DNA from: Gemmatimonadota bacterium
Lineage (GTDB): Bacteria > JAAXHH01
Assembly: GCA_009837395.1 (NCBI GenBank)
Contig: VXTP01000007.1
Coordinates: 1 to 43,848 of the forward strand
Length of the DNA stretch: 43,848 nucleotides
Direction: 5' to 3'
A program made the translations under genes and the position numbers. Each line of letters starts with the position of its first letter. The first letter of the stretch is position 1. The notes under the pieces were generated by a model. That model saw only the letters and a list, made by a program, of their open reading frames with translations. It was not told the DNA's origin and ran no database searches. Positions 5,686 through 43,844 of this stretch are shown here, piece after piece.

Positions 5686-8600
5686 TCCTGCAGCGGACCA
5701 GCAGCAACGTATCGAGGCGCTCGATACGGCCCGGTCGTTCATCGTCCAAGCACCGGCGGGGTCCGGCAAGACTGAATTGCTGATCCAGCGGTTCCTGGCC
5801 TTGCTGGCCCGGGTGGACCGGCCGGAGGCCGTCGTGGCCATTACCTTTACCCGCAAGGCGGCCGCGGAGATGCGCCATCGCATCGTCGCGGCGTTGGGAA
5901 GCGCCGCCGGGCCGCGGCCGGTGACGCCCCACGAAGCCCATACCTGGAAGCTCGCACGGGAAGCCGTTGCCCGAAACGACCGGCTGGACTGGCGGTTGGC
6001 CGAGCATCCGGCGCGCCTGCGCATCCAGACGATCGATTCGCTCTGCGCCATGCTGGTGCGCAGGATGCCGTGGGTCTCCCGCATGGGCGCGGCGCTCCGG
6101 CCGGTGGATGACGCGGGACACCTGTATGCGCGCGCGGCCCGCCGGACGGTGTCCATGCTGGATGCCGAAGGGGCGCCGGCGGACGTGACCGGGGCGGTGG
6201 CCGTACTTCTTGCCCACCTGGATAACCACTTCGGGAGAGTCGAACAACTGCTGAGTGTCATGCTCGGCACCAGGGACCAGTGGATGCGGCACGTGGTCCA
6301 CCGTGGGCATCACACCGTGTTGCGTGAAGCCCCGGCACCTCGCGAACCTGCAACGGAGGGCGATGCCGTCACGGAGGGCAATGCCGGCGCGACCGGCGAT
6401 GCCCCGGTGCCTCGCGAGCACGAAGCGCTGCGTGCCCACCTGGAGGCCTCCATCGGTGAGGTCATCGAAAGCACCCTGGAACGGGTCCGGAACGGGTTCC
6501 CGGAGCGCTTTAGGGACGAAACTACCGCCCTCGCCCGGTTCGCGGCATCAAACCTGCGTGCGAGTAACCGGGCGAGTGTGATCGACGCGTGTCACGAGAT
6601 GACCGGGTTTCCGGGTTCCGATGCCGAGTCGCTCCCGTCCTGGATCGGGATCGTGGAGATGTTCTTAACCGGCCAGGGAACCCGGCGCCGCTCCCTGAAC
6701 GTCAACCAGGGATTCCCGCCGTCCGATGCCGGGCGCGACGCAAAAGAACGACTCGCCCGCATCGACCTGGACCCGGGAACCACCGAATCGTTGCACGAAT
6801 TGCGCACACTGCCCCCTCCGCGTTTCGATGAAAGGCAGTGGGACGTCCTGAACGCGCTGATGCTCCTGCTGCCCGTGGCGGTGGAGCAGCTCAGGATCGT
6901 CTTCCAGGAAGAGGGATGTGTCGACTTCACGGAGATCGGCATTGGCGCGCGGGCCGCCCTGGGTCCGGACGAAGCGCCCACCGACCTGGCCCGAAGCCTG
7001 GACGATCGCATCATGCACCTGCTCATCGACGAGTTCCAGGATACCTCCCAGAGCCAGTACGGCCTGCTCACCCGCCTCACCAGGGACTGGCGCCCTGATG
7101 ATGGCCGGACGCTGTTCCTGGTGGGCGATCCCATGCAGTCGATCTACGGGTTTCGCGAAGCGGAGGTAGGGCTGTTCCTTCAGGCCCGGAAGAACGGGGT
7201 TGGCGCCGTCCGCCCGGTCCCCCTCGCGCTATCGGTCAATTTCCGCTCACATCCACCCGTCGTGGATTGGGTGAACCACGTTTTGCGCGAAGCATTCCCC
7301 CTGAGCGAGGACTTCCTCTCGGGCGCGGTGACCTACGAGCCCTCCGAGGCGTTCAAGGCCGATGATCCAGACAGTTGCGTCCGCTTCCATCCCTTCCTCG
7401 ACCGCGACCAGGAGGCCGAAGCCGAACGCGTCGTCGAGATAATCACCGTGGCGCGGGCGCGGCGACCGGAAGAGACCATCGCCGTGCTGGTCCACGCCCG
7501 CAGTCATCTGGCCGGTATCGTTTCCGCCCTGAGAAGGAACGGGGTGAGATTCCGCGCCGTGGAGATCGACGCCCTGGGGGACCGTCCGGTGGTACGGGAC
7601 CTGCTCGCGCTCACACGGGCGCTCCTGCATCCCGGCGACCGGGTGGCCTGGCTGGCCCTGCTGCGCGCCCCGTGGTGCGGCCTCACGCTGACGGATCTCG
7701 AAGCCCTGGCCGGAGGCGACGCCCCGTCCGCGGTATGGGATCTCCTTCAGGAACCTGCGCGGCGGGAGCGGCTGTCACCGGACGCCCGATCCAGGATCGA
7801 CCGCATGATGCCCGTACTCACCGAGGCCTTCGCTTTGCGCGCGAGGTTGCCTGTCCGCCGGCTGGTGGAAGGCGTCTGGACCGCGCTGGGTGGACCGGCC
7901 TGCCTGGAGACCCGGACCGACCGCGAAGACGCTGCCGCTTTTCTCGATCTCCTGGAACGGGTGCAGGACGGCCTGGGGATCCCGGACGAGAAGGCCTTCG
8001 CCGACGACGTCGCGCGCCTTTTCGCGCCATCCGACATCGAAGCAGCCGGGGACGTGCAGCTGCTGACTATTCATCGGGCCAAGGGCCTGGAGTTCGATAC
8101 GGTCATCCTGCCCGGACTGGGCCGCCTTCCGCGATCGGAGGACCCGAGGTTGCTCATGTGGCACGAATACGCCCGCGGCAGGCAGTCCCGGCTTCTGCTT
8201 GCGCCTATCCGCGCTACCGGCGGCGAAAAGGACCCGCTCTACGCCTACCTGGCCCGCATTGAATCGCAAAAGCGCGAAAACGAAAGGACCCGGCTGCTCT
8301 ACGTGGCCGCCACCCGGGCCCGGAAATGCCTGCATCTGCTCGGGCACGCCGTACCCGATCCGGAGAACGAATCCCTGAAGACTCCGGGTTCTCGGACCCT
8401 GCTGGCGAGGATCTGGCACGCCGTGGAGCCGGAGTTCCAGGAAGCACTGAAGGACTATGAGGGAAAAAGCCCGGAAGGCGAGACGGCCGCGGTAAAGCCC
8501 CGGGGGGTGCCGCTCCGTCGCCTGGTTACGGGCTGGACGCCCGGACCATTGCCCGAAGACATCGACTTCAAACCGCTATATGATCCGTCGGATCCCGACG

Positions 8601-9151
8601 GCCAGGAGTCGGGGCATCCTACCTTCGAATGGGTAACCGAACTTCAGCGCCGGGTAGGCGTCGTCGTGCACCAGATGCTGCAGCGCATGTACGCGCCGGA
8701 TCTCCTGGACTTCGGCGAGGACAGGCTTCGCACGGCGCTCCGGCAGGAAGGGCTGGCGGGTGAAAAGCTGGACGAGGCGGTTTCCCGAGCGCTGTCCGCC
8801 CTGGGGAACATTGTTGCGGACGAAAGGGGACGCTGGATACTGTCCCGGCACCCGCGCGACGAAAGAGAGCTAGCCCTGACCACGGTCCTCGACGGCCGGG
8901 CTCAAAGATACGTCGTGGACCGGACTTTCGTGTTCGAAGGGACGCGCTGGATCATCGATTACAAGACCAGCGACCATACCGGCGGGGATCTCGAGGGTTT
9001 TCTGGATAACGAACAGCAGCGGTACCGTAGCCAGCTGGAGGGCTATGCAGGCGTTCTGCAGTCGCTGGAATCCGGACCGGTCAACCTGGGCCTGTATTTC
9101 CCGATGCTGCAGGGATGGCGGACCTGGACGTACCCGGGGAACCCGCGTTGA
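5672..9151 (+). CDS. UvrD/Rep superfamily 1 helicase-nuclease, AddA-like
   Basis: This 1159-residue protein is the motor and second nuclease of an AddAB/RecBCD-like pair. Visible SF1A motifs are Walker A APAGSGKT (K33), motif Ia AITFTRKAAAEM, Walker B LLIDEFQDTSQ (D453, E454), motif III VGDPMQSIYGFR, motif IV LSVNFRSH, motif V LLTIHRAKGLEFD and motif VI LLYVAATRARK. The C-terminus carries WIIDYKTSD (D1096, K1098), a PD-(D/E)XK nuclease core. AGGAGGAG at 5657-5664, 7 nt before ATG 5672, decides the start; longer frames upstream run through the AddB-like gene. Residues 228-245 are a low-complexity insertion made of 18-bp repeats. Both subunits keep nuclease residues, so dual-strand degradation is likely. 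Confidence 0.9.
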   Translation: MTVVDPAADQQQRIEALDTARSFIVQAPAGSGKTELLIQRFLALLARVDRPEAVVAITFTRKAAAEMRHRIVAALGSAAGPRPVTPHEAHTWKLAREAVARNDRLDWRLAEHPARLRIQTIDSLCAMLVRRMPWVSRMGAALRPVDDAGHLYARAARRTVSMLDAEGAPADVTGAVAVLLAHLDNHFGRVEQLLSVMLGTRDQWMRHVVHRGHHTVLREAPAPREPATEGDAVTEGNAGATGDAPVPREHEALRAHLEASIGEVIESTLERVRNGFPERFRDETTALARFAASNLRASNRASVIDACHEMTGFPGSDAESLPSWIGIVEMFLTGQGTRRRSLNVNQGFPPSDAGRDAKERLARIDLDPGTTESLHELRTLPPPRFDERQWDVLNALMLLLPVAVEQLRIVFQEEGCVDFTEIGIGARAALGPDEAPTDLARSLDDRIMHLLIDEFQDTSQSQYGLLTRLTRDWRPDDGRTLFLVGDPMQSIYGFREAEVGLFLQARKNGVGAVRPVPLALSVNFRSHPPVVDWVNHVLREAFPLSEDFLSGAVTYEPSEAFKADDPDSCVRFHPFLDRDQEAEAERVVEIITVARARRPEETIAVLVHARSHLAGIVSALRRNGVRFRAVEIDALGDRPVVRDLLALTRALLHPGDRVAWLALLRAPWCGLTLTDLEALAGGDAPSAVWDLLQEPARRERLSPDARSRIDRMMPVLTEAFALRARLPVRRLVEGVWTALGGPACLETRTDREDAAAFLDLLERVQDGLGIPDEKAFADDVARLFAPSDIEAAGDVQLLTIHRAKGLEFDTVILPGLGRLPRSEDPRLLMWHEYARGRQSRLLLAPIRATGGEKDPLYAYLARIESQKRENERTRLLYVAATRARKCLHLLGHAVPDPENESLKTPGSRTLLARIWHAVEPEFQEALKDYEGKSPEGETAAVKPRGVPLRRLVTGWTPGPLPEDIDFKPLYDPSDPDGQESGHPTFEWVTELQRRVGVVVHQMLQRMYAPDLLDFGEDRLRTALRQEGLAGEKLDEAVSRALSALGNIVADERGRWILSRHPRDERELALTTVLDGRAQRYVVDRTFVFEGTRWIIDYKTSDHTGGDLEGFLDNEQQRYRSQLEGYAGVLQSLESGPVNLGLYFPMLQGWRTWTYPGNPR
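6353..6406 (+). repeat. 18-bp tandem array, 3 units, in-frame in AddA-like helicase
   Basis: Units at 6353, 6371 and 6389 encode TEGDAV, TEGNAG and ATGDAP. The array is flanked by a larger imperfect duplication (APAPRE before, APVPRE after), so two duplication scales are nested. Confidence 0.75.
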
Positions 9152-9168
9152 AACCCGAGAAAGACACC

Positions 9169-10969: not shown

Positions 10970-11038
10970 GGTCAACTTGCCGGCATGGTCAACTTGCTGG
11001 CATGGTCAGTCTGGCCGACATGGTCAGCCTGGGTGGCC
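10970..11038. repeat. Intergenic 17/18-bp tandem array, 4 degenerate units
   Basis: Units start at 10970, 10987, 11004 and 11022. The first two are nearly identical (GGTCAACTTGCCGGCAT and GGTCAACTTGCTGGCAT); the last two are diverged. TGGTCAGCC at 11021-11029 is one base from the TGGTCCGCC unit found elsewhere. It fills the space between the 59-residue gene and the ComB-like gene. Confidence 0.7.
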
Positions 11039-14724: not shown

Positions 14725-17235
14725 TCACCGATCAAGTGGGGCCGACATCGCCTTCTCCTCCGGTGCAAGGCAGACGGCGTCGTTACAGGCCTGGTAGTAC
14801 AGGGTCGCGTAAAGACGCCCACCTTCCGTGAGCGTTCCGCCTTCCGCGAGGGATCCGCCTTCCGCGAGGGAATGCGGATCCACTTCGATTTGGGCGCTCA
14901 GCCTGATTTCCCCCTGGTACACATCCACCGGAACATCGGTGAAACCGAACCGCAACGTATCCGCCGGTGGATAGGAGACCGCGGCGATCCGGATGGGCAG
15001 ATCCGCATTGAACGTCAGGGCCGTGGGAACCAGCCCCGGTACGTCGGTCTTGCCGCCGATAATGTGCCAGCCGTCCTCGATATGGATCGATACGATCGCG
15101 TCAAACACCCCGTCGCGCGGGCCCGGCACGGCGCTCAGGTAGGCCTCGACCTTCGCGTCGCCGCCGAATCCGGTCTCGGCGTCGCCGACCGCAGCATTGG
15201 GTCCGCCGGCTTCGCGGGCGCCGCCGACCGCAGCATTGGGTCCGCCGGCTTCGCGGGCGTCGCCGACCGCAGCATTGGGTCCGCCGGCCCTGTCTCCCGT
15301 TCGCACCGCATCCTCTTCACCGTGCAGAAAATCCTGCAGTACAAGGATCATGGAGGTGAACTGTCCGGGGACCTCCTTCATCGAGGCGGCGTAGGCGCCG
15401 AAAAGACGCTCGGCCCGCGCACGGTACCGCGGATCGCCGGTGTGGCGCGCCAGTGAAAGCAGCACCCGGGCGGCCACGCCGTTCCCCGAAGCCCGCGCCC
15501 CGTCGAAGGCGTTCCTCGTTCGCAGGAGCTGGTATTCCTCGGCTTCCCCGAAGTAGTACCCGCCGGCTTCCGAATCCCAGAAGCGCTCGTTCATCCGGTT
15601 CGTGAGCGTTTCGGCCGCGACGAGCCAGCGGGTATCCGCACTGGCCTCGTACAGGCTGAGCAGCCCCCCGATCAGGCAGGCGTAGTCCTCCTGGAACGCG
15701 CTCCTCCGGACCGCTCCGTCGGAAAAGATCCGGTAGAGGCCGAGCTCATCGTCCCAGAGCCGGTCGAGCATGAAATCCGCGGCCCGCGCGGCCGTTTCGA
15801 TGTACCGCCCGTCTCCGGTCACGAGTCCCGCGTAGGCGTAGGCATCGATCATCTGGCCGTTCCAGGCCGTGATCACCTTGGGGTCCACCACGGGACGCTT
15901 GCGCTCCGACCGCGCCGACCGCAGCGCTTCGCGCATGGCTTCCAGGCCGGCGAAAGGCCCGGTCCAGTCCGCTTCCTCCCGGACGTACAGGACACCGGAA
16001 CCGGAGGGAACGCCTGTGTCGGTCTCCGACGCTTCTTCGGCAGCCGCACTTCCGGTGGCCGCCGCCACCCCGGGCATCGGCGCCAGTCCATACCTACCCA
16101 GAAACGCGTCGGCGTCCGCGCCGAGCGTCTCCCTGATCTCCGTCTCGGACCAGAGGTAATACCGGCCCTCCACGGCGTCGGTCTCGGAATCCACCGACGC
16201 GTGGAAAGCACCGTCGACGGACCGCATCTCCCTCTGGACGAAGGCGAGCACGTCTTCGGCGACGGCCCGGTAAGCGGCGTCGCCGGTCATGACAAAGGCC
16301 ATCAGGTAGACCCGGGCGAGATCCGCCTGGTTGTACAGCATCTTCTCGAAATGGGGGATGCGCCAGGCGGAATCCGTGGCATACCGGTGAAATCCACCGC
16401 CCACGTGGTCGTAGAGGCCGCCCCGCATCATGACGTCCAGGGTGTGGGTGGCCATAGACAGCAGGGACCCGTCGCCGGTGCGTTCGTATTCCTTCAGCGC
16501 GAGTTCGATACGCAGGGGCGCCGGGAACTTGGGCGCGGGACCGAATCCGCCGTTTACGGCGTCGTATCGCGTCTTCAGATGGGACCGGGCGTCGGACAGG
16601 ATGGCGTCGTCCGGTTCCGCCGTTCCGTCGGCCGCGACCTGGTCGCGCTGAAACGAGCGGATCGCTTCGGCCACCCGGCCCGCCTGTTCGACCAGGTCGT
16701 CCCTGCGGGTGTCCCAGGCCTCCCTCAACAGGTTCAGTATGCGGGGGAAACCTGGTCGGCCGGGGAGATCCTCCGGCGGGAAATAGGTACCTGCGAAAAA
16801 CGGTTCGAGATCCGACGTGAGGAACACCGAATTGGGCCAGCCGCCGCCGCCCGTGATGAGCTGGGTGGCCGTCATGTAGATCTCGTCTATATCCGGCCGT
16901 TCTTCCCGGTCTACCTTGATGTTTATGAAATGGGCGTTCATGACCGCGGCGATGTCGGGGTCGGAGAACACCTCGCGCTCCATGACGTGGCACCAGTAGC
17001 AGGTCGCGTAACCGACAGACAGGAAGATGGGTTTCCCCTCCCCGCGGGCGCGTTCGATCGCCTCCGCGTCCCAGGGATGCCAGTCCACCGGATTCCGGGC
17101 GTGGGCGCGCAGATAGAGACTGGTTTCTCCGGACAGCCTGTTTAAGGGAGGGCCGGATCCGGCATCGCAACCCAGGACCGCAGTCCCGGCGATGAGGACG
17201 ATGGCGGCGAGGAAATTGCGGGCCGAGCAAGGCAT
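14725..17235 (-). CDS. DUF255 (YyaL/SPATA20-like) thioredoxin-fold lipoprotein fused to a DsbD-alpha-like domain
   Basis: The 836-residue protein starts with a lipoprotein signal (hydrophobic IVLIAGTAVLGC, lipid-modified C23). Next comes the DUF255 thioredoxin fold with CYWC (C79, C82) in SVGYATCYWCHVME, followed by the (alpha/alpha)6 glycosidase-like region typical of SPATA20/YyaL. The last ~150 residues resemble the N-terminal periplasmic domain of DsbD: DGWHIIGGKTDVPGLVPT and, at the end, YQACNDAVCLAPEE with cysteines C817 and C822. One polypeptide thus carries two redox pairs, suggesting periplasmic thiol exchange; this is inference. Two tandem-repeat insertions (about residues 650-686 and 787-804) lie in linkers. 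It starts 10 bp after lpdA. Confidence 0.85.
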   Translation of the reverse strand: MPCSARNFLAAIVLIAGTAVLGCDAGSGPPLNRLSGETSLYLRAHARNPVDWHPWDAEAIERARGEGKPIFLSVGYATCYWCHVMEREVFSDPDIAAVMNAHFINIKVDREERPDIDEIYMTATQLITGGGGWPNSVFLTSDLEPFFAGTYFPPEDLPGRPGFPRILNLLREAWDTRRDDLVEQAGRVAEAIRSFQRDQVAADGTAEPDDAILSDARSHLKTRYDAVNGGFGPAPKFPAPLRIELALKEYERTGDGSLLSMATHTLDVMMRGGLYDHVGGGFHRYATDSAWRIPHFEKMLYNQADLARVYLMAFVMTGDAAYRAVAEDVLAFVQREMRSVDGAFHASVDSETDAVEGRYYLWSETEIRETLGADADAFLGRYGLAPMPGVAAATGSAAAEEASETDTGVPSGSGVLYVREEADWTGPFAGLEAMREALRSARSERKRPVVDPKVITAWNGQMIDAYAYAGLVTGDGRYIETAARAADFMLDRLWDDELGLYRIFSDGAVRRSAFQEDYACLIGGLLSLYEASADTRWLVAAETLTNRMNERFWDSEAGGYYFGEAEEYQLLRTRNAFDGARASGNGVAARVLLSLARHTGDPRYRARAERLFGAYAASMKEVPGQFTSMILVLQDFLHGEEDAVRTGDRAGGPNAAVGDAREAGGPNAAVGGAREAGGPNAAVGDAETGFGGDAKVEAYLSAVPGPRDGVFDAIVSIHIEDGWHIIGGKTDVPGLVPTALTFNADLPIRIAAVSYPPADTLRFGFTDVPVDVYQGEIRLSAQIEVDPHSLAEGGSLAEGGTLTEGGRLYATLYYQACNDAVCLAPEEKAMSAPLDR
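14822..14875 (-). repeat. 18-bp tandem array, 3 units, in-frame in DUF255 protein
   Basis: Units at 14822, 14840 and 14858 encode, on the minus strand, LAEGGS, LAEGGT and LTEGGR just before the last strands of the DsbD-like domain. Confidence 0.8.
15179..15287 (-). repeat. 39-bp tandem array, 2.8 units, in-frame in DUF255 protein
   Basis: Units at 15179, 15218 and 15257 (last one partial) are almost identical and encode the 13-residue peptide AGGPNAAVGDARE three times. It lies in the linker between the glycosidase-like and DsbD-like regions. The near-identity suggests a recent expansion. Confidence 0.85.
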
Positions 17236-18822: not shown

Positions 18823-20054
18823 CCCTGGAAGCCATCACCAAGTCTATCACACACGGGCGGATCACGGAGCTGATCGAAGGGCTGGTCGCCATTCCGTCGG
18901 TCACGGGAAACGAACGGGCACTGGGCGACATGCTCCATGGGTTTTTCGGCGAGATCGGTCTTGCCGGGACTCACCGGATTCCGGTGGAGGAATCGGGCGA
19001 CACCCTGGCCGTGCGGATTCCCGGCCGCGACAACGGGAACGGCCCCGGTAACAGGAACGGCCGCGGCAACGGGAACGACCGCGACAAAGGCAACGGCCGC
19101 GCGTTCATGCTCAATTTCCACCAGGATACCTTCGACGCGTGCGATGGCTGGGAAACCGACCCGTGGTCGCCCGTGGTCAGAGACGGATGCATGCACGGAC
19201 TCGGCGCGCACGACATGAAGGCCGGCGCGGCGGCCGTGCTCGCCGCGGTGGAGGCCATCGTCCGGTCCGGGACGGAACTGGCCGGCGACCTGATCGTCTC
19301 CGCCACGACCGACGAGGAGAACTGGTCCCGGGGCGCCCACGCCCTGATCGACAGCGGGCTGCTCGGGGGGTGCGAAGGCTGCCTCATTCCCGAGCCCACG
19401 CCGCCGGGACGCCTGCGTATCGGTTCGCGGGGCCGCCACGTGATCAAGATCGACCTGGCGGGTAGGACGGCCCACGCCGCGTACACGGGAGAAGGTGTCA
19501 ACGCGGTGCATGACGCCGCGAAGATTATCACGGCGCTGGACCGGATCGAACTGGGCTGGAACGAGGAGTTCGAGCTTGGCGGCACGATCTGCGTCATCGA
19601 AATCAGCGGGGGGAGAAACATCATCCTCGTGCCGGAACACGCGCAGGTGGTCCTCGACAGGCATATACTGCCCGGACAGTCGATCGACGAAGCCGTGGAG
19701 GACATCGAGGCGCTGATCCGGTCCCTGTCGATCGCGTCCGAGTGGCGCGTCACGTGGGACGACCGGCCCACCCCCGCGCCGGCGCCGTACATCGTGGATC
19801 CCGGGTCGAAGTTCGTCCAGGCCACCCGGAAGCGGGTCGAAGAACAACTCGGCCGGCCGGTGCGATACGCCCTGGCACGGAGCGTAGCCGACACGAACCA
19901 TTTTGCCGTGACCGGGGGCATCCCGACGCTGGTGTACGGACCCGAAGGGGGAAACACCTGCCAGGCCAACGAATTCGTCAGTATCGAGTCCACTCTACGT
20001 GTCGCGCGGGCCTATTGCGGCATCGTGATCGATATGCTGGGAGTCGCGCGTTAG
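18819..20054 (+). CDS. M20 family metallopeptidase (ArgE/DapE/ACY1 type)
   Basis: From ATG 18819 the product is 411 residues, a dinuclear zinc amidohydrolase that cleaves N-acyl or peptide bonds of small substrates. Metal-site motifs are MLNFHQDTFDA, GLGAHDMKAGAAA (second metal Asp) and TTDEENWSRGA with the catalytic and ligand glutamates; RIGSRGRHVIKIDLAGRTAH marks the dimerisation lid. The frame extends upstream to a TTG at 18750, but coupling to the 14-codon cistron favours 18819. Residues 70-93 are an inserted Gly/Asn/Arg/Asp repeat between a beta strand and the first metal motif. The next gene begins 6 bp after its stop. Confidence 0.85.
   Translation: MTLEAITKSITHGRITELIEGLVAIPSVTGNERALGDMLHGFFGEIGLAGTHRIPVEESGDTLAVRIPGRDNGNGPGNRNGRGNGNDRDKGNGRAFMLNFHQDTFDACDGWETDPWSPVVRDGCMHGLGAHDMKAGAAAVLAAVEAIVRSGTELAGDLIVSATTDEENWSRGAHALIDSGLLGGCEGCLIPEPTPPGRLRIGSRGRHVIKIDLAGRTAHAAYTGEGVNAVHDAAKIITALDRIELGWNEEFELGGTICVIEISGGRNIILVPEHAQVVLDRHILPGQSIDEAVEDIEALIRSLSIASEWRVTWDDRPTPAPAPYIVDPGSKFVQATRKRVEEQLGRPVRYALARSVADTNHFAVTGGIPTLVYGPEGGNTCQANEFVSIESTLRVARAYCGIVIDMLGVAR
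19026..19097 (+). repeat. 18-bp tandem array, 4 units, in-frame in M20 peptidase
   Basis: Units at 19026, 19044, 19062 and 19080 encode RDNGNG, PGNRNG, RGNGND and RDKGNG. It is inserted just before the first metal-binding motif. Confidence 0.8.
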
Positions 20055-24517: not shown

Positions 24518-24562
24518 GGTCTGCTTGGTCTGCTTGGTCTGCTTGGTCAGATAGGTCTAGCC
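24518..24562. repeat. Intergenic 9-bp tandem array in the SDR leader, 5 units
   Basis: GGTCTGCTT is repeated perfectly at 24518, 24527 and 24536, followed by degenerate units at 24545 and 24554. It sits immediately upstream of the SDR ribosome-binding site. The rest of the 24508-24803 gap (296 bp) shows no gene that I can support. Confidence 0.85.
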
Positions 24563-28964: not shown

Positions 28965-31900
28965 TGGATGCCTCCACGGACCATAGGCTGGCGGCAGAGA
29001 TCCGGGACCTGCTCCCCCGCTGCACGCTCAAGGACCGGCGGGACATCCAGCGTGGGCTGAAAAAGTCGCGCGGGTCGCGCGGCGGAAGCGGGGCGCGCGG
29101 CGGGAGCGGGGCGCGCGGCGGAAGCGCGGACCAGGGCCGGCTACGCCGGTTGAAGGAGCGGGCGGACGCCTCCGTACGCCTCGTGGAGGCGCGCCTGCGG
29201 TCCGTCACCACCGTCGACATCGACCCCCAACTGCCCATTTCAACCCGGAAATACGAAATCCTCGAAACCCTGCGCGGCCATCAGGTGGTCATCGTGACGG
29301 GAGAGACCGGTTCGGGCAAGACGACGCAGCTGCCCCGGATCTGTCTCGAAGCCGGCCGGGGCGTATACGGCCGTATCGCGTGCACGCAGCCCCGGCGGGT
29401 AGCCGCCCTGTCGGTCTCGCGCCGCATCGCCGAGGAGCTCGGCGCGACCTGGGGTCGGGAAGTCGGATGCAAGATCCGGTTCACGGACGAGACCGTGGCC
29501 GAGACCCGCATCAAGATGATGACCGACGGCATGCTGCTCGCCGAGATCCAGCACGATCCGGACCTGCTTGAATACGACACGATCATCATCGACGAGGCCC
29601 ACGAACGCAGCCTGAACATCGACTTCCTGCTCGGTTACCTGCGTCTGCTGATCCGGCGCAGGAAGGACCTCAAAATCGTGGTCACCTCGGCGACGATCGA
29701 TGCCGCCGCTTTCTCGAACGCCTTCGATCAGGCGCCTGTCGTCGAAGTATCCGGACGCCTTCACCCGGTGGAGATCCGCTACCTGCCCCTCGAGGATACC
29801 CGGGGCGAAGCCGAAGTATACACCTATGTCGACGGGGCGGTGGACGCGGTCGACGGGATCATGGAAGAGCCCGGCCGGGGCGATATCCTGGTGTTTCTCC
29901 CCACGGAGAAGGACATCCACGAGACGCGCAGGAGACTGGACGGCCGGTCCTACCGGCACACCGACGTGCTTCCGCTTTTCGGGCGCCTGACCAACGCGGA
30001 CCAGCAGCGGGTCTTCCGGCCGGGGAACAACCGGCGCATCGTGGTGGCAACGAACGTCGCCGAGACCTCGCTGACCATACCGCGCATCAAGTTCGTCGTC
30101 GACACCGGTCTCGCTCGGATCAGCCGTTACGCCGCACGGACCCGCACCCAGCGACTGCCCATCGAACCCATTGCCAAAAGCAGCGCCCTGCAACGGGCCG
30201 GACGGTGCGGTCGCGTGTCGGGAGGCATCTGCCTTCGGCTTTACAGCGAGGCCGACCTGGAAGGCCGGCAGGAATTCACCACGCCCGAGTTGCAGCGCGC
30301 CAATCTCGCCGAGGTCATCCTGCGTATGCTCGCGCTGAAGCTGGGCGACGTCCACGCCTTCCCCTTTCTCGATCCGCCCACGCCCCAGGCGGTCCGGGAC
30401 GGGTTCCAGCTGCTCGCCGAACTGGGGGCCATCGACCGGGAACGGCGGCTGACCGGCAGGGGCAGGGACATGGCGAGATTGCCGGTATCGCCCACGGTGT
30501 CGCGCATGCTGCTGCAGGCCCGGCAGGAAGGCGCCCTGCAGGAGGTCCTCGTGATCGCGTCGGCCATCAGCATACAGGACCCGCGCGTGAGGCCGCTCGA
30601 CCAGCAGGAACAGGCGGACGCCGAACACCGCAAATTCAGGAACCGGACCTCGGACTTCCTGACCTTGCTCAATATCTGGGAGGCCTTTCACCGTACCTTC
30701 GAGCACCTGCAGACCCAGGGCGCCATGCGAAGGTTCTGCCGGCAACACTACCTGTCCTACAACCGCATGCGCGAGTGGCGCGATATCTACATGCAACTCC
30801 GCCGCGCGCTGCGAGAATCCGGTGGTTTCCGCGGAAGGGCGGGACGTGCGGGACGGGCACACTACGACGCGATCCACCGGTCGATCCTCAGCGGACTGCT
30901 CAGCCAGGTCGCGGAACTCCGGGAAGGCAATCTCTATTCCGGTGCACGGAACCGCACCGCCATGATCTTCCCCGGTTCCGGCCTATTTCGAAGAAAACCG
31001 GTCGAACAGCACCCGGAGAAAAGACCTGCCGGACGGGGGCAACAGGATCCCGGGAAGGATGCCGGTGAAGGACCACGGAAGGGGACGGGCGCCGCGACCT
31101 GGATTGTAGCCGCGGAGATGGTCGAGACCAACCGGCTCTATGCGCGCACGGTGGCCCGGATACAACCCGGGTGGGCCGCCGAACTGGGCCGCCACCTGTG
31201 CCGCGCTTCCTTTTCCGATCCAGGCTGGGACCGGTCCACCGGGCGGGTGACGGCCACGGAAACGCTGCACCTGTACGGCCTGATGGTCTCCCGGCGTACC
31301 GTCGATTACAAGAAGATCGATCCCGATGACGCAACGCGTATCTTCATCCGCGAGGCACTAGTCAACCTGGTCGGCCTGGTCGGGGAAGACCCGGTCGGGG
31401 AAGACCTGGTCGGCGAAAACCCGGTCGGCGAAGACCTGGTAGCCCGGCATGACTTCCTGGAGCATAACCGCGGGATACGTCGGGATGCCGAGACCTGGCT
31501 GCTGCAACACCGAAACGCCTATCGCGTCGATCTCGACGAGGCCGCCTTCCGTTTCTACGAAGAACGGATCTCCGGGGTATCTTCGGTACACGATCTGAAC
31601 CGCCTCATGAAGACTGCCGGCGCGGAAAATCCTTCCTTCCTGCACATGGACATCGGGGACCTTACGGGTACCGAGGAAGAAGAGGGCGGGTCGGGCGGAC
31701 CAGGCAGACCGGGCGGACCAGGCAGACCGGGCCGGCCGGAGGGCTTTCCGGAACATTTCAACCTGGAAGGCGATCTGCTCCCCCTGCAGTATGCCTGCCG
31801 GCCGGGCCGGGAAGAGGATGGGGTCACCCTTTCGCTGCCGGCCGACCGGGTCCATCTGCTGGATCCCGAAACGCTGGAATGGCTCGTGCCCGGCCTGCTG

Positions 31901-35109: not shown

Positions 35110-35305
35110 CGGCCCCGAACCCTCTGGTGCGCCGTAAATTGCGTCTTGCCTGTCCAATCGCTGATCCCTTATCTTTTTCGTGATTGTCAGCCGGCCGGCG
35201 AGCGGGTTGGACCGCCGGCGTACGGCTTGGGCCCTGCCGGGGGGCGGTATGGACCGCCAGCCGGGATGCCGGATCAAGCCGGTTCGCAGGGAATCGCTGC
35301 GAGAC

Positions 35306-37357: not shown

Positions 37358-38465
37358 GCCACCCGGCGAAGCGCCGCCCCACTTCCGGCCCGAGTCGGTC
37401 GAATTCTACTGGCGCGTTCCCTACGGAGAACGGGCGGCCGATGCCCGCGCGTGGGCGGCGGAACACGGCATCCGGCCCTCGGTCGAAGATGAATGCCGTA
37501 CCGCGCTGCTCCTGGTGGACTGCCAGAACACCTTCTGTCTCCCCGAGTTCGAGCTCTTCGTGGGTGGCCGGAGCGGCCGGGGCGCCGTGGATGACAACAA
37601 GCGGCTCTGCGCCTTCATCTACCGCAATCTCCATTCCATTTCTGAAATCATCGCCACGTTGGACACCCACACGACCCAGCAGATCTTCCATCCGGTATTC
37701 TGGGTAGACCGGGACGGCGGACATCCCACCGGGGGCGAGACCATCATCACCCCGGACGACGTGGAAGCGGGAACCTGGCGCGTCAATCCGGCCGTGGAGG
37801 CTCGGTACAGCGACCGGTTCGATCTTTCCACCTATGCCTTGCATTACGTCCGGCGCCTCACGCGGGACGGCAAGTATCCCCTCATGATCTGGCCCTACCA
37901 CGCCATGCTCGGGGGGATCGGCCACGCCCTGGTGTCCGCCGTGGAGGAGGCGGCGTTCTTTCACGGCATAGCCCGGGTCCGGCAGACGCGTTTCGAGATC
38001 AAGGGGAACCACGCCCTCACGGAAAACTACTCCGCGTTGCGCCCTGAAGTGACGGAGGATGCCGAAGGCCGCCCGCTGGGTGTGAAGAACACCCCGCTGG
38101 GTGTGAAGAACACCCCGCTGAGTGTGAAGAACACCCCGCTGGGTGTGAAGAACACCCCGCTGGGTGTGGAGAACACGCCGCTGGCCGACCACCTGATGTC
38201 CTTCGACGCCGTCATCGTGGCCGGGCAGGCCAAGAGCCACTGCGTGGCGTGGACGGTGGAGGATCTCCGGTCGGAATTCGCAGCGCGCGAGCCGTCCATG
38301 ATCCCGCGCGTCTGCCTGCTGGAGGACTGCACCTCGCCGGTCGTCGTGCCCGGTGTGATCGATTTTACCGAAGAGTCGGAGGCGGCCTTCGGCCGGTTCG
38401 CCGACGCGGGCATGCGCCGGGTGCGTTCCACCGAACCCATGGATAAGTGGGGAATTCCGGACTGA
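37347..38465 (+). CDS. Isochorismatase-like cysteine hydrolase, probable nicotinamidase
   Basis: The 372-residue protein is a cysteine hydrolase with nucleophile C299 in AGQAKSHCVAWT, D58 in LLVDCQNTFC, and a metal-site pattern DTHTTQQIFHP (D106, H108). These match nicotinamidases, which convert nicotinamide to nicotinate for NAD salvage, and the overlap with nadE supports that role. It is longer than typical PncA (about 180-220 residues): it has extra N-terminal and mid-protein segments and a five-fold heptapeptide repeat at residues 244-278. ATG 37347, inside the end of nadE, is the preferred start; no strong ribosome-binding site is seen, consistent with coupling. Confidence 0.82.
   Translation: MRFRPPGEAPPHFRPESVEFYWRVPYGERAADARAWAAEHGIRPSVEDECRTALLLVDCQNTFCLPEFELFVGGRSGRGAVDDNKRLCAFIYRNLHSISEIIATLDTHTTQQIFHPVFWVDRDGGHPTGGETIITPDDVEAGTWRVNPAVEARYSDRFDLSTYALHYVRRLTRDGKYPLMIWPYHAMLGGIGHALVSAVEEAAFFHGIARVRQTRFEIKGNHALTENYSALRPEVTEDAEGRPLGVKNTPLGVKNTPLSVKNTPLGVKNTPLGVENTPLADHLMSFDAVIVAGQAKSHCVAWTVEDLRSEFAAREPSMIPRVCLLEDCTSPVVVPGVIDFTEESEAAFGRFADAGMRRVRSTEPMDKWGIPD
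38076..38180 (+). repeat. 21-bp tandem array, 5 units, in-frame in nicotinamidase-like gene
   Basis: Units at 38076, 38097, 38118, 38139 and 38160 encode LGVKNTP, LGVKNTP, LSVKNTP, LGVKNTP and LGVENTP. Units 1, 2 and 4 are identical at the base level, indicating a very recent expansion. Confidence 0.92.
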
Positions 38466-38490: not shown

Positions 38491-39570
38491 CTACCTGCCG
38501 AGAGGACAGCAGTCCGTCGGACATCGGTCGGGCCATGGACCCAGGACGCCCAAGGCCGGCCTGCCCGCCGATGGGGACAACCGCTCTTCGACGAGCTCCA
38601 CGATCATGTCTACGAAGCGGGGATGGGTCCCCGCTGTTTCCGCCCGGACCATGCGCACCCCGAGTTCATCGCAGCAGGCCCGCGCTTCCACGTCCAGGTC
38701 GTAGGCCACCTCCATGTGGTCCGAGATGAATCCCACGGGGATCACCACGATATCGCGGTCCGCGTGAACCGCAGCGTCCGCCCTGTCCGCCGCATCCCTC
38801 CGGGACACGTCCTCCCGGGCCGCGTCCCCCCGGGCCGCGTCCGTTTCGTGGAATGAACGGATATAGTCGCAGACGTCGGGTTCCAGCCAGGGCTGGGCGG
38901 GCGGCCCGCTGCGGCTCTGGAAGGTCAACGCCCAGGAGGACTTGCCCACGCGCTCGCTGATGAGCCGGGACGCTTCGCGGAGCTGCGCTTCGTACGCGCA
39001 GCCGCCGGCCATGGCCAGGGGTATGCTGTGAGCGGTGTACACGAGGTGCGCCCGCGGACGGCGTTCCTCCGGCAGGCGATCCAGCGCGGAGCGAACGCGC
39101 GCCGCCATCGTTTCGATGAATCCCGGATGATTGAAAAAGGGCCTTATTTTCTCGATTACCGGAGCACCGGATCCCGCGTCGCGGCGGGCCTCCTCGATGT
39201 TCTCCAGGTACTGCCTGCAGTTTGACCAGGAGCTGTACGGCGACGTGACAAAGGCCAGAGCGTGCTGGATTCCGTCCGCGGCCATGCGCCCGACCGTATC
39301 CGAAAGCAGGGGATGCCAGTTCCGGTTTCCCCAGTAGACCGGCAGGGAAAGGTCGCGGGTTTCCAATGCCTCTTCCAGGGCGGAGATCAGCGCACGGTTC
39401 TGGCCGTTGATCGGGCTGACCCCGTCAAAATGATGGTAGTGTTCCGCGACCTCCATCATCCGTTCCCGGGGGACGCGCCGGCCCTTGAGCACGCGCTCGA
39501 GGAAGGGGATGACATCATCCGTGCCTTCGGGACCACCGAAGGAAACCAGGAGCAGTGCGTCGTAGTTCAA
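38491..39570 (-). CDS. hemH: Ferrochelatase, probable coproporphyrin type with iron-sulfur cysteines
   Basis: This enzyme inserts Fe(II) into a porphyrin. It opens with YDALLLVSFGGPEGTDDVIP, has GNRNWHPLLSD, SPYSSWSNCRQYLENI, and FISDHMEVAYDLD (equivalents of the active-site His and Glu). A cysteine in CRQY plus the C-terminal CPTDCCPLGR fit the [2Fe-2S] cluster of some bacterial ferrochelatases. Start: TTG 39570 is chosen because GGGGAGG lies 7 nt upstream; ATG 39588 is the alternative and would add six residues. Residues 241-260 (from TTG) are a 15-bp repeat insertion. The adjacent ChdC-like gene suggests the substrate is coproporphyrin III (CpfC role), an inference. Confidence 0.9.
   Translation of the reverse strand: MNYDALLLVSFGGPEGTDDVIPFLERVLKGRRVPRERMMEVAEHYHHFDGVSPINGQNRALISALEEALETRDLSLPVYWGNRNWHPLLSDTVGRMAADGIQHALAFVTSPYSSWSNCRQYLENIEEARRDAGSGAPVIEKIRPFFNHPGFIETMAARVRSALDRLPEERRPRAHLVYTAHSIPLAMAGGCAYEAQLREASRLISERVGKSSWALTFQSRSGPPAQPWLEPDVCDYIRSFHETDAARGDAAREDVSRRDAADRADAAVHADRDIVVIPVGFISDHMEVAYDLDVEARACCDELGVRMVRAETAGTHPRFVDMIVELVEERLSPSAGRPALGVLGPWPDRCPTDCCPLGR
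38791..38850 (-). repeat. 15-bp tandem array, 4 degenerate units, in-frame in hemH
   Basis: Units at 38791, 38806, 38821 and 38836; on the minus strand they encode HETDA, ARGDA, AREDV and SRRDA, followed by more Ala/Asp-rich sequence, inserted before the strand leading to the SDHMEV motif. Confidence 0.75.
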
Positions 39571-39671
39571 AGGGCTTCCTCCCCGCATGGTGTTCAGACC
39601 CCGTATTTCCTTGCCATGATACCGGTTCGCCCGTAAGTTACGCCAGGCCGGACCCATCGGAATTACGCGCG

Positions 39672-40484
39672 ATGTCGCGGAATACGCAACAGGGAAGCGC
39701 AGTGAGCGAAGAAACCGGGAAAACCCCCGACATCCTTGAACGCGGAGCGCCCGTTGACGGGCAGCCCCAAACGGCCGAAACACGGCTGTACATGCAGCTC
39801 AACGTGTTCACCCTGTCCGGCGCCGGATTCGCCGGTCAGCCTGGCCAGCCTCGGCAGACACGGACCATGGCAAATGACATCGCCGCCAGCCTCGAGGATT
39901 CCGGTCTGGATGCCGCGGTGTATCTCGATGTCAATGATCCCGTGGGCATCGGCGTGCTGTTTCTCGCCGAAGATCCCGACACCTTCGTATCCGACGTACG
40001 GAACCTGCTGACGGGACGGCCTTTCGATGTCCTTGACCGCCGCGGGTCCATGACGATGCTCGGCAGGACCTACTCCATGGGATTCGAGCCGGACCTGATG
40101 GAGTCTCTCATCCACCGGCCGCGCAACACCGTGCTCAACCCCGACTGGCCCTGGGCCATCTGGTACCCGTTGCGGCGCAACGGCGCCTTCGCCAGGCTGG
40201 AACACAAGGAACAGCGCCAGATTCTGATGGAGCACGCCCACATCGGACGGGCCTACGGCCGTGCCGATTTCGCCCATGACATCCGCCTGGCCTGCTACGG
40301 GCTGGACGCGGCGGACAACGACTTCGTTATCGGCTTGATCGGAAAGGACCTCTACCCGCTTTCACGGGTCGTGCAGGACATGCGCAAGACCCAGCAGACC
40401 GCATTGTATATCGATTCGCTCGGACCGTTCTTCGTTGGCAAGAAGACCTGGTCGAGCGACCCGTTACGGTCGAGCGACCCGTAA
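39672..40484 (+). CDS. chdC: Chlorite dismutase-family haem protein, probable coprohaem decarboxylase (HemQ/ChdC)
   Basis: The 270-residue protein matches the HemQ/ChdC branch: PWAIWYPLRRNGAF (Y165 aligns with the catalytic tyrosine), ILMEHAHIGRAYG (probable proximal H188) and the C-terminal AADNDFVIGLIGKDLY, QQTALYIDSLGPFFVGK. ChdC oxidatively decarboxylates coprohaem III to haem b, the last step of the coproporphyrin-dependent pathway. The gene diverges from hemH with about 100 bp between starts. The ATG at 39672 is used; a GTG at 39702 with AGGGA upstream is an alternative. The C-terminus is a two-unit 18-bp repeat that contains the stop codon. Confidence 0.85.
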   Translation: MSRNTQQGSAVSEETGKTPDILERGAPVDGQPQTAETRLYMQLNVFTLSGAGFAGQPGQPRQTRTMANDIAASLEDSGLDAAVYLDVNDPVGIGVLFLAEDPDTFVSDVRNLLTGRPFDVLDRRGSMTMLGRTYSMGFEPDLMESLIHRPRNTVLNPDWPWAIWYPLRRNGAFARLEHKEQRQILMEHAHIGRAYGRADFAHDIRLACYGLDAADNDFVIGLIGKDLYPLSRVVQDMRKTQQTALYIDSLGPFFVGKKTWSSDPLRSSDP

Positions 40485-41046: not shown

Positions 41047-41066
41047 TTCTCCGGTTCTCCTGGACG

Positions 41067-41116
41067 GCGCGGGCGTTTATCCGCGCGGGGCGTTCATCCG
41101 CGCGGGGCATTCAGGG
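41067..41116. repeat. 16/17-bp tandem array, 3 units, between trmH-like gene and pyrF
   Basis: Units at 41067, 41083 and 41100 (GCGCGGGGCGTTCATCC type). The third unit runs over the pyrF stop codon. Confidence 0.75.
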
Positions 41117-41923: not shown

Positions 41924-42858
41924 GGGGCGTCCTCTTGTGAAGGTATTTGTAGGCTTCCGATCAGCGAGCGGACCGAGTGCACTTCCGACGCGGCGCACCA
42001 TTCGGCCAGCGTACGCGCGACAGACGGTCCGGCGCGGGGTTCCACGAAGGTGGCCGTGCCCACCTGGACGGCCGTGGCGCCCGCAACAAGGAACTCCACG
42101 GCGTCTTCTCCGCTCATGATGCCGCCGATGCCGATGACCGGGACGGCTACCTGGCTCGCGATCCGGTAAACGGCCGCGATGGCCACGGGCTTGATGGCCG
42201 GACCCGACAGCCCCCCCGTGACGGCGCCGAGCATGGGGCGGCGCGTGCGGATGTCCACCGCCATGCCTCGCAGGGTGTTGATGGCCGATATGGCATCGGC
42301 GCCGGCCTCTTCGACGCTGCGTGCGATCTCCCCGATGTCCGTGACGTTCGGCGTAAGTTTGGCGATGAGCGGCAGTTCCGTGAGGCCCCGAAGCGTGGAA
42401 ACCAGTTCCGCAGCGCGCCGTGGATCGGTACTGAAGTCCATGCCCCCGGACACGTTCGGACAGGACATGTTGATCTCCAGGGCATCGATGCCTTCGCAGT
42501 CCGACAGGCGTTCGGTCACGTAGACGAACTCCTCCACCGGGCCTCCGCCCACGTTGACGATCAACGCGGTGTCCACCTTTCTCAAGTACGGTATCTTGTC
42601 CCGGATGAAGGCCTCCACGCCCACGTTCTGCAGCCCGATGGAATTGAGCATGCCGGCGGCCGTCTCCGCAGCCCGGGGCGGAGGATTGCCCGGCCAGGGC
42701 TCGGGCGTGAGCGTCTTCGTGACGATGCCGCCGAAATCGGAGAGATCCACGAACCGGCCGTATTCCGATCCGTATCCGAAGGTGCCCGATGCGGCGAGCA
42801 CGGGATTTCTCAGCTCCAGCGTGCCGATATTTACCGTCAAGTCGGGTGGTGCCGTCAC
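41908..42858 (-). CDS. pyrD: Dihydroorotate dehydrogenase class 1B catalytic subunit
   Basis: The 316-residue FMN protein oxidises dihydroorotate to orotate. NMSCPNVSGGMDF contains the active-site cysteine of class 1 enzymes; LAASGTFGYGSEY, LIAKLTPNVTDI and GIGGIMSGEDAVEFLVAGA are FMN/substrate motifs. Class 1B is indicated by the overlapping pyrK gene, which makes NAD the final electron acceptor. It starts with GTG at 42858, whose bases overlap the pyrK stop as GTGA, implying tight stoichiometric coupling of the two subunits. Confidence 0.95.
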   Translation of the reverse strand: MTAPPDLTVNIGTLELRNPVLAASGTFGYGSEYGRFVDLSDFGGIVTKTLTPEPWPGNPPPRAAETAAGMLNSIGLQNVGVEAFIRDKIPYLRKVDTALIVNVGGGPVEEFVYVTERLSDCEGIDALEINMSCPNVSGGMDFSTDPRRAAELVSTLRGLTELPLIAKLTPNVTDIGEIARSVEEAGADAISAINTLRGMAVDIRTRRPMLGAVTGGLSGPAIKPVAIAAVYRIASQVAVPVIGIGGIMSGEDAVEFLVAGATAVQVGTATFVEPRAGPSVARTLAEWCAASEVHSVRSLIGSLQIPSQEDAPCHRS

Positions 42859-43751
42859 AGCACGACCTCCTGCATGTCGAACACCGGGCCGGCGTCGCAG
42901 ACCCGCTCGTAGCGTCGGGACGAAGACGGTTCACCGTGGGCGGCGCTGGGAGCGGCGCTCGGGTCAGCATCGGGGTCGGCGCAGGCCACGACGCAGGCCA
43001 TGCATACGCCCACACCGCAGGGCATGATCCCCTCGAGGGAAACCTGCCCGTCGATACCGGCTTCCCGGGCGATTTCCTGGCAACGCCGCATCATGGGCGT
43101 CGGTCCGCAGGCATAGAGATAGGCGCACCGCCGGGGCGAGGAGGCCAGTTCCCGTTCCAGCAGTTCCGTCACCAGTCCGTGGTGGCCCGTCGTGCCATCG
43201 TCGGTCGCCAGCCTGACGTCGACCCCGTATTCGCGGAATTTCTCCTCCCCGCTCAAGAGGCCCGCCGTGGCCGCGCCGAAGAGCACCGTCATTTCCGCGG
43301 GCCGTGCCCGGCCATCCCGTGCCGTCTCCTGGGCCAGGGAGAGAAAGGGCGCCACGCCTACGCCCCCGGCGACCATGACCACCGGCCGTCCCGCGCGCAC
43401 CGGCTCGAACGTCCTTCCCAGGGGTCCGAGCACGTCGACCCGTTCTCCCCGGCGCCGCGTCGCCAGGATCTCGGTTCCGCCGCCGACGATCCGGTATATG
43501 AGCCCGAAAACGCCGCGTTCCGGATCCCGTTCGGCAATGCTGAAGGGTCGCCTGAGCAGAGGGGTGTGACGGAGCCAGGTCTGCCTGCTGCTTTCCTCCG
43601 AGACATCGGAAGCGATCAGGTGTACGAAGTGTCCGGGCAGGGCGTGTCGTGTGATTTCGGGTGCCAGCAGGTCGATCCAATACAGGCCGGGACCGATTTC
43701 ACGGTTGGAAAGGACCTCGGCATCGTACTGGCAGATTGGGATGGTGGACAT
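42855..43751 (-). CDS. pyrK: Dihydroorotate dehydrogenase electron transfer subunit
   Basis: The 298-residue flavo-iron-sulfur protein passes electrons from PyrD to NAD. The FAD domain has HTPLLRRPFSIAE, the NAD domain VMVAGGVGVAPFLSLAQE and YLYACGPTPMM, and the C-terminal [2Fe-2S] site MPCGVGVCMACVVAC with the last ligand in YERVCDAGPVFD. Between the third and fourth cluster cysteines there is a four-unit repeat insertion (residues about 255-271: ADPD, ADPS, AAPS, AAHG). The ATG at 43751 is the only sensible start; an excellent promoter lies so close that the mRNA would be nearly leaderless. Confidence 0.93.
   Translation of the reverse strand: MSTIPICQYDAEVLSNREIGPGLYWIDLLAPEITRHALPGHFVHLIASDVSEESSRQTWLRHTPLLRRPFSIAERDPERGVFGLIYRIVGGGTEILATRRRGERVDVLGPLGRTFEPVRAGRPVVMVAGGVGVAPFLSLAQETARDGRARPAEMTVLFGAATAGLLSGEEKFREYGVDVRLATDDGTTGHHGLVTELLERELASSPRRCAYLYACGPTPMMRRCQEIAREAGIDGQVSLEGIMPCGVGVCMACVVACADPDADPSAAPSAAHGEPSSSRRYERVCDAGPVFDMQEVVL
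42940..42987 (-). repeat. 12-bp tandem array, 4 units, in-frame in pyrK
   Basis: Units at 42940, 42952, 42964 and 42976 encode the tetrapeptides AAHG, AAPS, ADPS and ADPD (read on the minus strand in reverse order), inside the iron-sulfur cluster loop. Confidence 0.7.
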
Positions 43752-43759
43752 GCTCCACT

Positions 43760-43788
43760 ACAATACAGCCGGCCGGGCCGGATGTCAA
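43760..43788 (-). promoter_or_regulatory. Strong putative promoter of the pyrKDF operon
   Basis: On the minus strand a perfect TTGACA (43783-43788), a 17-nt spacer and TATTGT (43760-43765) precede the pyrK ATG by only 8 nt, so transcription should start at or within about 3 nt of the ATG. Confidence 0.6.
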
Positions 43789-43808
43789 CGCATCATTTGT
43801 CCGGCGCC

Positions 43809-43844
43809 GGGGCCGAAGCCGGGGTCGAGGTCGGGGTCGGCGCC
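43809..43844. repeat. 12-bp tandem array, 3 units, at the window edge
   Basis: GGGGCCGAAGCC, GGGGTCGAGGTC and GGGGTCGGCGCC at 43809, 43821 and 43833. The array is cut by the window end, and I cannot tell whether it is coding. Confidence 0.65.

Follow-up and report, generated by a model that had tools for sequence, protein, structure and literature searches.

Abundant, mostly in-frame tandem-repeat arrays and a genus-specific nonamer family in the genome of a Gemmatimonadota bacterium

The window and its genome

The stretch of DNA described here, referred to below as the window, is the whole 43,848-nucleotide contig VXTP01000007.1 (contig 31) in a draft assembly of 3.8 Mb and 47 contigs (GCA_009837395.1) from a Gemmatimonadota bacterium of the lineage JAAXHH01. 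It carries genes for an addA-like helicase-nuclease, a DUF255 protein, an M20 peptidase, a glycosyltransferase 2 (GT2), HrpA, NAD synthase, the ferrochelatase HemH, ChdC and PyrK, and both these genes and the spaces between them hold short tandem arrays (Table 1), some of which share a nine-base unit, (GACCRGGCN)n. The phylum is represented by only 16 genomes, of which 12 belong to the same genus and four, used as outgroups, to other genera of the order; genomes other than the organism's own are given by handles (G001 and so on) where they need to be told apart. In an rpoB tree with 16 named rows the lineage adjoins Zixibacteria (support 95/91) and stands away from Poribacteria, while a six-gene tree splits an expansion clade of seven genomes from G004, G008, G009 and G011 and leaves the internal forks open. 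The lineage may be the one known from sponges as PAUC34f/SAUL. The six-gene tree was built by a quick method with partial rows for G004 and G006, and the hrpA rows of both, which are out of frame with one TGA each, were omitted from it.

Arrays were defined as merged rows of Tandem Repeats Finder (TRF), usually at a score of at least 50, and were sought in a 710,874-bp sample of the organism's own genome, in samples of 31-160 kb from each relative, partly from the same region as the window, and in a control set of 80 named loci from many phyla that had been picked for holding a DUF255 gene. For the scan of exact nonamer tandems, 2.1 Mb of control DNA was used. The number of relatives aligned per gene ranged from 6 (addA) to 13 (hrpA, including two out-of-frame rows).

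Array density in the window, the genome and controls

At a TRF score of at least 30 the window yields 50 rows; after merging, 22 arrays remain at a score of at least 40 and 13 at 50 or more, and the 17 reported in the original prediction are a fair count for an intermediate cut. Nine of the 13 lie in six genes (two in DUF255, one each in M20 and GT2, three in hrpA, one in the open reading frame (ORF) ending at 38465 and one in hemH), with periods of 9, 15, 15/30, 18, 18, 18, 18/36, 21 and 39 bp, and the remaining four, with periods of 9, 17, 17 and 20, fall outside called genes. The prediction had placed thirteen arrays in nine genes. The stretches in addA and chdC do not reach the cut, although they vary between relatives, and the array ascribed to pyrK lies upstream of its start, a length-variable stretch being present inside the gene.

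Twenty second-order Markov simulations of the window gave a mean of 0.4 arrays and a maximum of 2, as opposed to the 13 observed. The genome sample as a whole contains 164 arrays, or 2.31 per 10 kb, compared with 46 arrays in 584,956 bp (0.79 per 10 kb) in GC-rich control loci (GC 58-72%) and 0.57 per 10 kb in the remaining controls, individual control genomes ranging from 0 to 1.37, with Thermoanaerobaculia at the top. Among loci of at least 10 kb, the median is 2.5 for the organism's own (n=35) and 0.46 for controls (n=65; Mann-Whitney p 8e-12). Five close relatives show 2.06-3.39 arrays per 10 kb, and G004, G011 and G008 show 1.93, 1.90 and 0.75, respectively; further assemblies of the genus, such as those of G006 (7 contigs) and G001 (9 contigs), show the same landscape. 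The abundance of arrays is thus real and genome-wide. An array is found in 68 of 521 genes of at least 100 residues, and density is about four times higher between genes (5.32 per 10 kb) than within them (1.38).

Reading frame and DNA likeness of the copies

It had been claimed that every coding period is divisible by three, and this holds for all nine coding arrays of the window and, in the genome sample, for 79 of 83, compared with 27 of 59 intergenic arrays (Fisher p 1.5e-11). GC-rich controls show 24 of 28 for coding periods, which makes the rule of three ordinary in itself. With so few exceptions the arrays do not behave as phase-variable contingency loci, in which coding units that are not multiples of three switch the frame. 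Insertions and deletions (indels) of at least 9 bp between close species show the same bias, 56/66 being divisible by three in coding DNA and 17/32 in non-coding DNA, and this, together with orthologues that differ by whole units, bears out the proposal of an amplification filtered by reading frame.

When codon order was shuffled within the 538 called genes (three runs), 6-8 arrays were left of the actual 84, and when synonymous codons were permuted with the proteins kept (three runs), 40-43 were left, so that about half of the arrays require a likeness of DNA beyond that of the peptides. Units of 18 bp are in excess among coding arrays (26/83, compared with 3/38 in controls, p 0.005); no such excess was seen for intergenic arrays (12/59 and 5/44, p 0.29). 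A 9-bp sub-period was found in 9 of the organism's 40 arrays of 18-bp units, and doubling of the nonamer accounts for part of the coding excess, the remainder being unexplained. A search for one motif common to all arrays gave only mild enrichment (e.g. GCGGACC, 13 compared with 3.5), which is unconvincing after multiple testing. Hairpin propensity, as mean z, is -0.46 for the arrays, 0.03 for random segments, -0.09 for control arrays and -0.51 for the pure nonamer; as the arrays are only slightly more foldable, hairpins would be a weak aid at most.

Arrays as insertions in conserved proteins

For HemH and HrpA, comparison with solved structures confirmed the prediction that the arrays are insertions. 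HemH aligns with the ferrochelatase chain 28wn as far as residue 249 and again from 279, with three chain residues between, so that its array splits the alignment as an insertion of about 26 residues. In HrpA, the 15-bp array corresponds to a gap in the solved HrpA 9ggr, which we take to be the E. coli protein, and the array at 31684..31732 to a partial gap. In the model of the DUF255 protein, built with 38 sequences (mean predicted local distance difference test score, pLDDT, 84), the segments with pLDDT below 50 are 1-26, 391-404, 641-694, 793-798 and 800-802; the array at residues 650-686 falls within the third of these, and both of the last two are contained in that at 789-805. In composition the array peptides show an excess of A, G, D and S and a deficit of I, F and C. 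These results agree with the expectation that arrays would sit mostly in loops and linkers.

Of 17 further array-bearing proteins drawn at random, 15 were scanned against Pfam (L220:1-3471 and L221:2-1909 were omitted) and 14 had matches, of which only the best stretch was considered. In most of them the array lies in a linker or outside the matched stretch, as in PDH-E2, DnaX and a radical SAM protein. In TrpRS the array separates two pieces of a single domain, in MacB and a cytochrome it lies at the edge of the match, and in RpoC, a nickel-insertion protein and an ABC ATPase it lies within it. The in-frame arrays of RpoC and DnaX are in L034 (7237-11598) and L223 (7250-9442), respectively.

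Across the relatives aligned, copy number changes in frame by units of 3-13 residues, and the deeper species mostly have the short form, the exceptions being G004 and G009 in GT2 and G009 in HemH. The gene with the array at 38072 illustrates this, with about one PLGVKNT unit in G010, G001, G008, G009 and G011, two in G006, G002 and G007, three in G003 and 5.4 in the organism itself, and similar series are seen for the M20, HrpA, GT2, HemH and DUF255 arrays.

Table 1. Tandem arrays and related features of the window, with their state in relatives
Feature	Position	Strand	Basis	Relatives
Weak 18-bp array, addA-like helicase-nuclease	6359..6403	+	TRF score 48, below cut	Length-variable in G010, G002, G006, G003, G001
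17-bp intergenic array	10970..11026	.	TRF score 77	
18-bp array, DUF255 protein residues 789-805, SLAEGG units	14822..14871	-	TRF	Units fewer or none in G007, G006, G005, G004, G008, G011, G013
39-bp array, DUF255 linker residues 650-686, 13-residue unit	15178..15288	-	TRF score 215	Other lengths; another repeat in G006
18/36-bp array, M20 peptidase	19022..19101	+	TRF	Short form in G002, G004, G005, G008
9-bp intergenic array, nonamer variant GACCAAGCA	24518..24558	.	TRF, nonamer scans	About 10-bp units in some
In-frame nonamer insertion, gene 24804-26210	26050..26085	-	Orthologue alignment	18-54 bp of nonamer in 7/7 expansion-clade species; no insertion and no visible seed in G005, G004, G009, G011, G008
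9-bp nonamer array (GACCAGGCG), GT2, peptide DQA	27474..27518	+	TRF, alignment	One-copy nonamer seed in G008, G011; one-mismatch seed in G005
18-bp array, HrpA	29065..29129	+	TRF, alignment	Short form in G005, G008, G009, G011, G013
Two nonamer units, strand opposite hrpA	31364..31381	-	Nonamer scan	
15-bp array, HrpA	31366..31440	+	TRF	Absent in G001, G005, G008, G009, G011, G012, G013
9/18-bp nonamer array, HrpA, peptide GRPGGP	31684..31732	+	TRF, nonamer scan	
Period-20 array upstream of NAD synthase called start (35306)	35194..35258	.	TRF, gene call	Not conserved as protein
21-bp array, PLGVKNT units, 5.4 copies, ORF ending 38465	38072..38184	+	TRF	See text
15-bp array within HemH	38789..38842	-	TRF	Variable in 9 relatives aligned
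Two nonamer-like units (GGTCAGCCT), 5' part of chdC	39834..39860	+	Scan, alignment; sub-threshold	More nonamer-like units in G006, G003, G001
17-bp intergenic array	41067..41113	.	TRF, alignment	Longer in G010
Length-variable stretch in PyrK	42900..42980 (about)	-	Alignment	APG/TDPG units in some
6/12-bp array upstream of pyrK start (ORF 42855-43751, minus)	43801..43846	.	TRF scores 36-47	

The shared (GACCRGGCN)n family

What the original prediction overlooked is that a subset of the arrays consists of one shared nonamer, which points to a process at the level of DNA. When arrays were compared with each other by BLAST, a second place was found for 49 of 161, compared with 40-49 of 161 random segments, and a match to another array for 10, compared with 1-3 random segments. 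In an exact 8+N+8 tandem scan, rotations of one nonamer head the genome sample, GGCGGACC occurring at 8 places, as opposed to 3 places for the best unit in the control DNA; by the same scan the nonamer was not prominent in 300 kb from three relatives outside the window region. Arrays of (GACCRGGCN)n make up 14 of the 164 in the sample (11 coding, 3 intergenic), 21 of 142 in eight relatives, some at places equivalent to those in the window, and none of 88 in the 80 control loci; among 1640 random segments of the genome there were 4.

Two exact tandem units are matched 44 times in the whole genome, 22 on each strand and at 28 separate places, and 60, 59, 17, 70, 21, 29, 27, 68, 53, 45 and 5 times in the other 11 members of the genus, so that each of the 12 members has 5-70 matches, compared with 0, 0, 0 and 1 in the four outgroups. 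A control pattern of equal composition gave one match across all 16 genomes and none in the organism's own. The reversed pattern gave 25 in the organism's own genome, 27, 24, 15, 54, 8, 23, 24, 45, 41, 54 and 3 in the other members and 0, 0, 0 and 1 in the outgroups; in G008, G004 and G011 these figures approach or exceed those of the forward pattern. With R=A and N=G the reversed pattern amounts to the nonamer in another rotation, so that this control is not independent; part of its count is the nonamer in another register, a share that could not be separated from the rest. With one mismatch allowed per unit, the sample holds 17 tandem places (23.9 per Mb), while two control sets hold 4.6 and 7.4 per Mb. 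Sixty letter-shuffled units gave a mean of 2.25; the highest of them, at 21, exceeded the nonamer itself, and the next stood at 10. A looser scan for families with one mismatch per unit found no 9-bp family prominent, the top units of the genome sample being CCGCGCCGG (16), CCCCGGCCG (14) and ACCGGGCGG (14), the last of which is a rotation of the nonamer.

The nonamer is read as DQA, GGP/GRP and RTR and, on the opposite strand, as GLV-like, WSA and GRV peptides, and since it is read in several frames and on both strands it is shared as DNA and not as peptide. The family is genus-specific and placed in genes as readily as outside them. A Chi- or uptake-like genome signal was ruled out, as outside arrays the single unit shows no excess (GACCAGGC, 115 observed and 110 expected). 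Quadruplex formation would probably not be general for the nonamer, since the A variant lacks a GGG run: as read from the units, GACCAGGCN has G runs of two only and GACCGGGCN has GGG. The single-copy seed at GT2 and the seedless site at 26050 suggest that local growth and arrival at new sites both seem to occur, and the apparent arrival is drawn from alignments at the one site, 26050. Viral contigs hold 42 nonamer stretches.

Neighbouring genes and other observations

The gene with the PLGVKNT array had been called a nicotinamidase, a name that was not sustained: no Pfam or NCBIfam family was found at E<=0.01, and the sole PncA match is weak (E=0.26). Its product (37302-38465) is conserved and adjoins NAD synthase. 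A weak TRF row at 31172-31204 is conserved hrpA sequence of constant length in the relatives that align there. At 39555-39783, the listed 430-residue hemH ORF overlaps the chdC ORF of the opposite strand; relatives suggest a HemH start near 39588, and the gene caller places that of ChdC at 39702. A PcfJ-like protein (Pfam E 1.7e-9) is encoded at 12944-14656 amid housekeeping genes. L037 (G000:C16:1-20000) matches stretches that adjoin the region orthologous to the window in G001, G002 and G003, and contigs 31 and 16 are therefore probably neighbours.

Indel spectrum, repair genes and competing explanations

Seven alignments within the expansion clade (207 kb) were compared with two sets from the sister clade and with Azospirillum, Paracoccus and Sinorhizobium; as some of the alignments share species, the counts are not fully independent. 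Indels of at least 9 bp occur at 5.37 per 1000 substitutions in the expansion clade, as opposed to 3.56 and 2.98 in the sister sets, 2.96 in Azospirillum, 2.09 in Paracoccus and 0.19 in Sinorhizobium, which is 1.5-2.6 times the rate of the first four sets and 28 times that of the last (Fisher p 2.4e-17). Tandem-type indels stand at 1.75 per 1000, compared with 0.71 and 0.30 in the sister sets, 0.74 in Azospirillum and 0 in both Paracoccus and Sinorhizobium (p 7.5e-7 for the last). One-base indels are not raised, their non-coding rate of 11.1 per 1000 substitutions lying within the control range of 5.9-48.7, so that it is long units that are in excess. Among non-coding indels, the ratio of long to one-base events sets the expansion clade apart from one sister set (p 0.003) and from Sinorhizobium (p 4e-6).

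The explanation that we hold to be probable is a genome-wide minisatellite landscape, shaped by duplication and slippage under a filter of reading frame, together with the genus-specific nonamer family. Local segments of about 9-40 bp would duplicate head to tail inside and between genes, and the units would then grow or shrink in number. The likely step is replication slippage or the misalignment of loops of 9-40 bases, which mismatch repair handles poorly; we infer this step, as we do the direction of change and the cause of the genus's richness in arrays. The arrays themselves, their differing copy numbers, their frame bias, their status as insertions and the nonamer family are shown by the data. 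Coding events that disrupt the frame or hit structured parts would mostly be purged by purifying selection, and what survives would be in-frame arrays that encode disorder-prone peptide and sit for the most part in linkers and loops. The (GACCRGGCN)n arrays would be superimposed on this landscape in unrelated genes, in several frames and on both strands, apparently grown from a single-copy seed at GT2 and present elsewhere where relatives show no seed.

Several points weigh against this explanation. The claim of lineage specificity stands in degree only: density is about threefold above GC-rich controls, yet the organism's own median is reached by 3 of 65 control loci, and the Poribacteria locus L060 is denser than the genome, mostly with longer units. 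(In L060, which comes from Candidatus Poribacteria Plut_88864, 22 kb contain 8 arrays; their units measure 9-132 bp, and the stretch GCACAATCAAGGATGAATGTGCTACAG recurs in three of the arrays.) The excess of long indels is modest against most controls, with p values of 0.26 and 0.016 for the sister sets, 0.047 for Azospirillum and 0.12 for Paracoccus, and of 0.31 and 0.0032, 0.19 and 0.17, respectively, for tandem-type indels; the ratio of long to one-base indels does not differ significantly from that of the other sister set, Azospirillum or Paracoccus. Relative to substitutions, long non-coding indels show no significant difference between the expansion and sister clades (p 0.66-0.83, three gap settings), so that selection or history, and not mutation, may be behind the small number of arrays in G008. 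Low pLDDT at the arrays may be due in part to the few sequences aligned there, the genes were called by a home-made caller, and copy number was compared between species, each represented by one genome.

The absence of a significant difference in long non-coding indels between the two clades fits an account by relaxed purifying selection, in which mutation is ordinary and insertions are tolerated, for example in small populations, as does the reach of the arrays into RpoC and DnaX among the 68 of 521 genes. We nevertheless regard this account as unlikely. The strong frame filter, in both periods (79/83) and indels (56/66), indicates that selection is at work; coding indels of 1-5 bp show no rise, at 13 per 18,237 substitutions in the expansion clade compared with 2/2,806 and 2/6,704 in the sister sets, 19/10,723 in Sinorhizobium, 9/4,055 in Azospirillum and 9/1,435 in Paracoccus; and a shared nonamer requires a sequence-specific cause. 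A possibility of much the same low standing, and a speculative one, is that the nonamer is actively spreading, with new sites seeded either by copies of other arrays or through templated addition of repeats, and that it persists in core genes because it keeps the frame, as a minimal mobile repeat adapted to coding sequence.

Selection for varied protein surfaces, as in contingency loci, is very unlikely to have driven the arrays. It would suit the finding that the same linkers are expanded in several species with different peptides, but array density between genes is about fourfold that within them, so that selected loop diversification is not needed; arrays also occur in intracellular core enzymes, and they seldom break the frame and thus provide no on/off switching. 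We give slightly less weight still to a mismatch-repair mutator, caused for example by a change at the C-terminus of MutS in the expansion clade. The MutS profile match does stop early, at 784-789 of 840 positions, in all seven genomes of that clade (G006 has a separate piece at 794-840), and it reaches 839-840 in G004, G008, G009, G011, G012, G013 and G014, G005 having a fragment only. One-base indels are the class repaired by MutS, and since these are not raised the indel spectrum largely refutes a mutator; moreover, the match in the outgroup G015 likewise stops at 789, so that the break is not confined to the expansion clade. The break would represent an insertion or divergence before the C-terminus, the organism's own gene being at G000:C23:132387-134804. 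In profile searches of the 16 genomes, recJ was found in 16, mutS in 16 (14 over the cut-off), xseA in 15 (unmatched only in G014) and the polA 5'-exonuclease domain in 15 (unmatched only in G005); a missing repair gene as the cause was rejected, as the organism's own genome has all four. Chance or an assembly artefact, which a draft of 47 contigs might bring to mind, is refuted by the simulations and shuffles and by the like landscape in other assemblies of the genus, including G006 and G001. Taken as a whole, the original prediction was confirmed in part as an observation and supported in part in its interpretation.

Relation to known repeats and significance

The genome of Ehrlichia ruminantium is reported to be rich in tandem arrays, which are longer and mainly intergenic, and it resembles the present one in their genome-wide abundance. 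Parallels also lie among bacterial minisatellites, with their variable numbers of tandem repeats (VNTR), and small variable segments, where head-to-tail units likewise differ in number between relatives and variable segments within genes are in frame (PMC2884548). The arrays described here share these features, with near-identical head-to-tail units above chance and copy numbers that differ between relatives; they stand apart in being denser than the controls used and in lying inside core enzymes. According to that paper (PMC2884548), 3-6% of genes have a segment that varies within a species, a different measure from the 68 of 521 genes reported above. In composition (A, G, D and S), the arrays resemble prokaryotic coding repeats in general, where serine, glycine, alanine and proline dominate and hydrophobic residues are scarce (PMC3899988), and they differ in density and in the shared nonamer.

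The nonamer is one unit at many unrelated places and on both strands, and in this it is a dispersed repeat like the heptamers GGGNATC and GGGGA(C/T)T of Xanthomonas and Nostoc (PMC4692102) and the short tandemly repeated repetitive (STRR) sequences of cyanobacteria (PMC2670836), whose copy number also varies between related species. The heptamers are mostly extragenic there and their role is left open (PMC4692102). A mainly intergenic placement, as expected of families of the STRR and GGGNATC type, does not hold for the nonamer family (11 coding and 3 intergenic arrays), and a genus-wide nonamer family that is equally intragenic had no precedent in the literature searched, most subscription papers being outside that search.

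The arrays document, in nature, how linkers of conserved enzymes such as HrpA and HemH grow through tandem duplication, with short and expanded forms coexisting across up to 12 related species. With the nonamer family one can test how a single unit comes to occupy dozens of genomic places, and whether divisibility by three spares a unit the exclusion from genes that is seen for the heptamers of Xanthomonas and Nostoc (PMC4692102).

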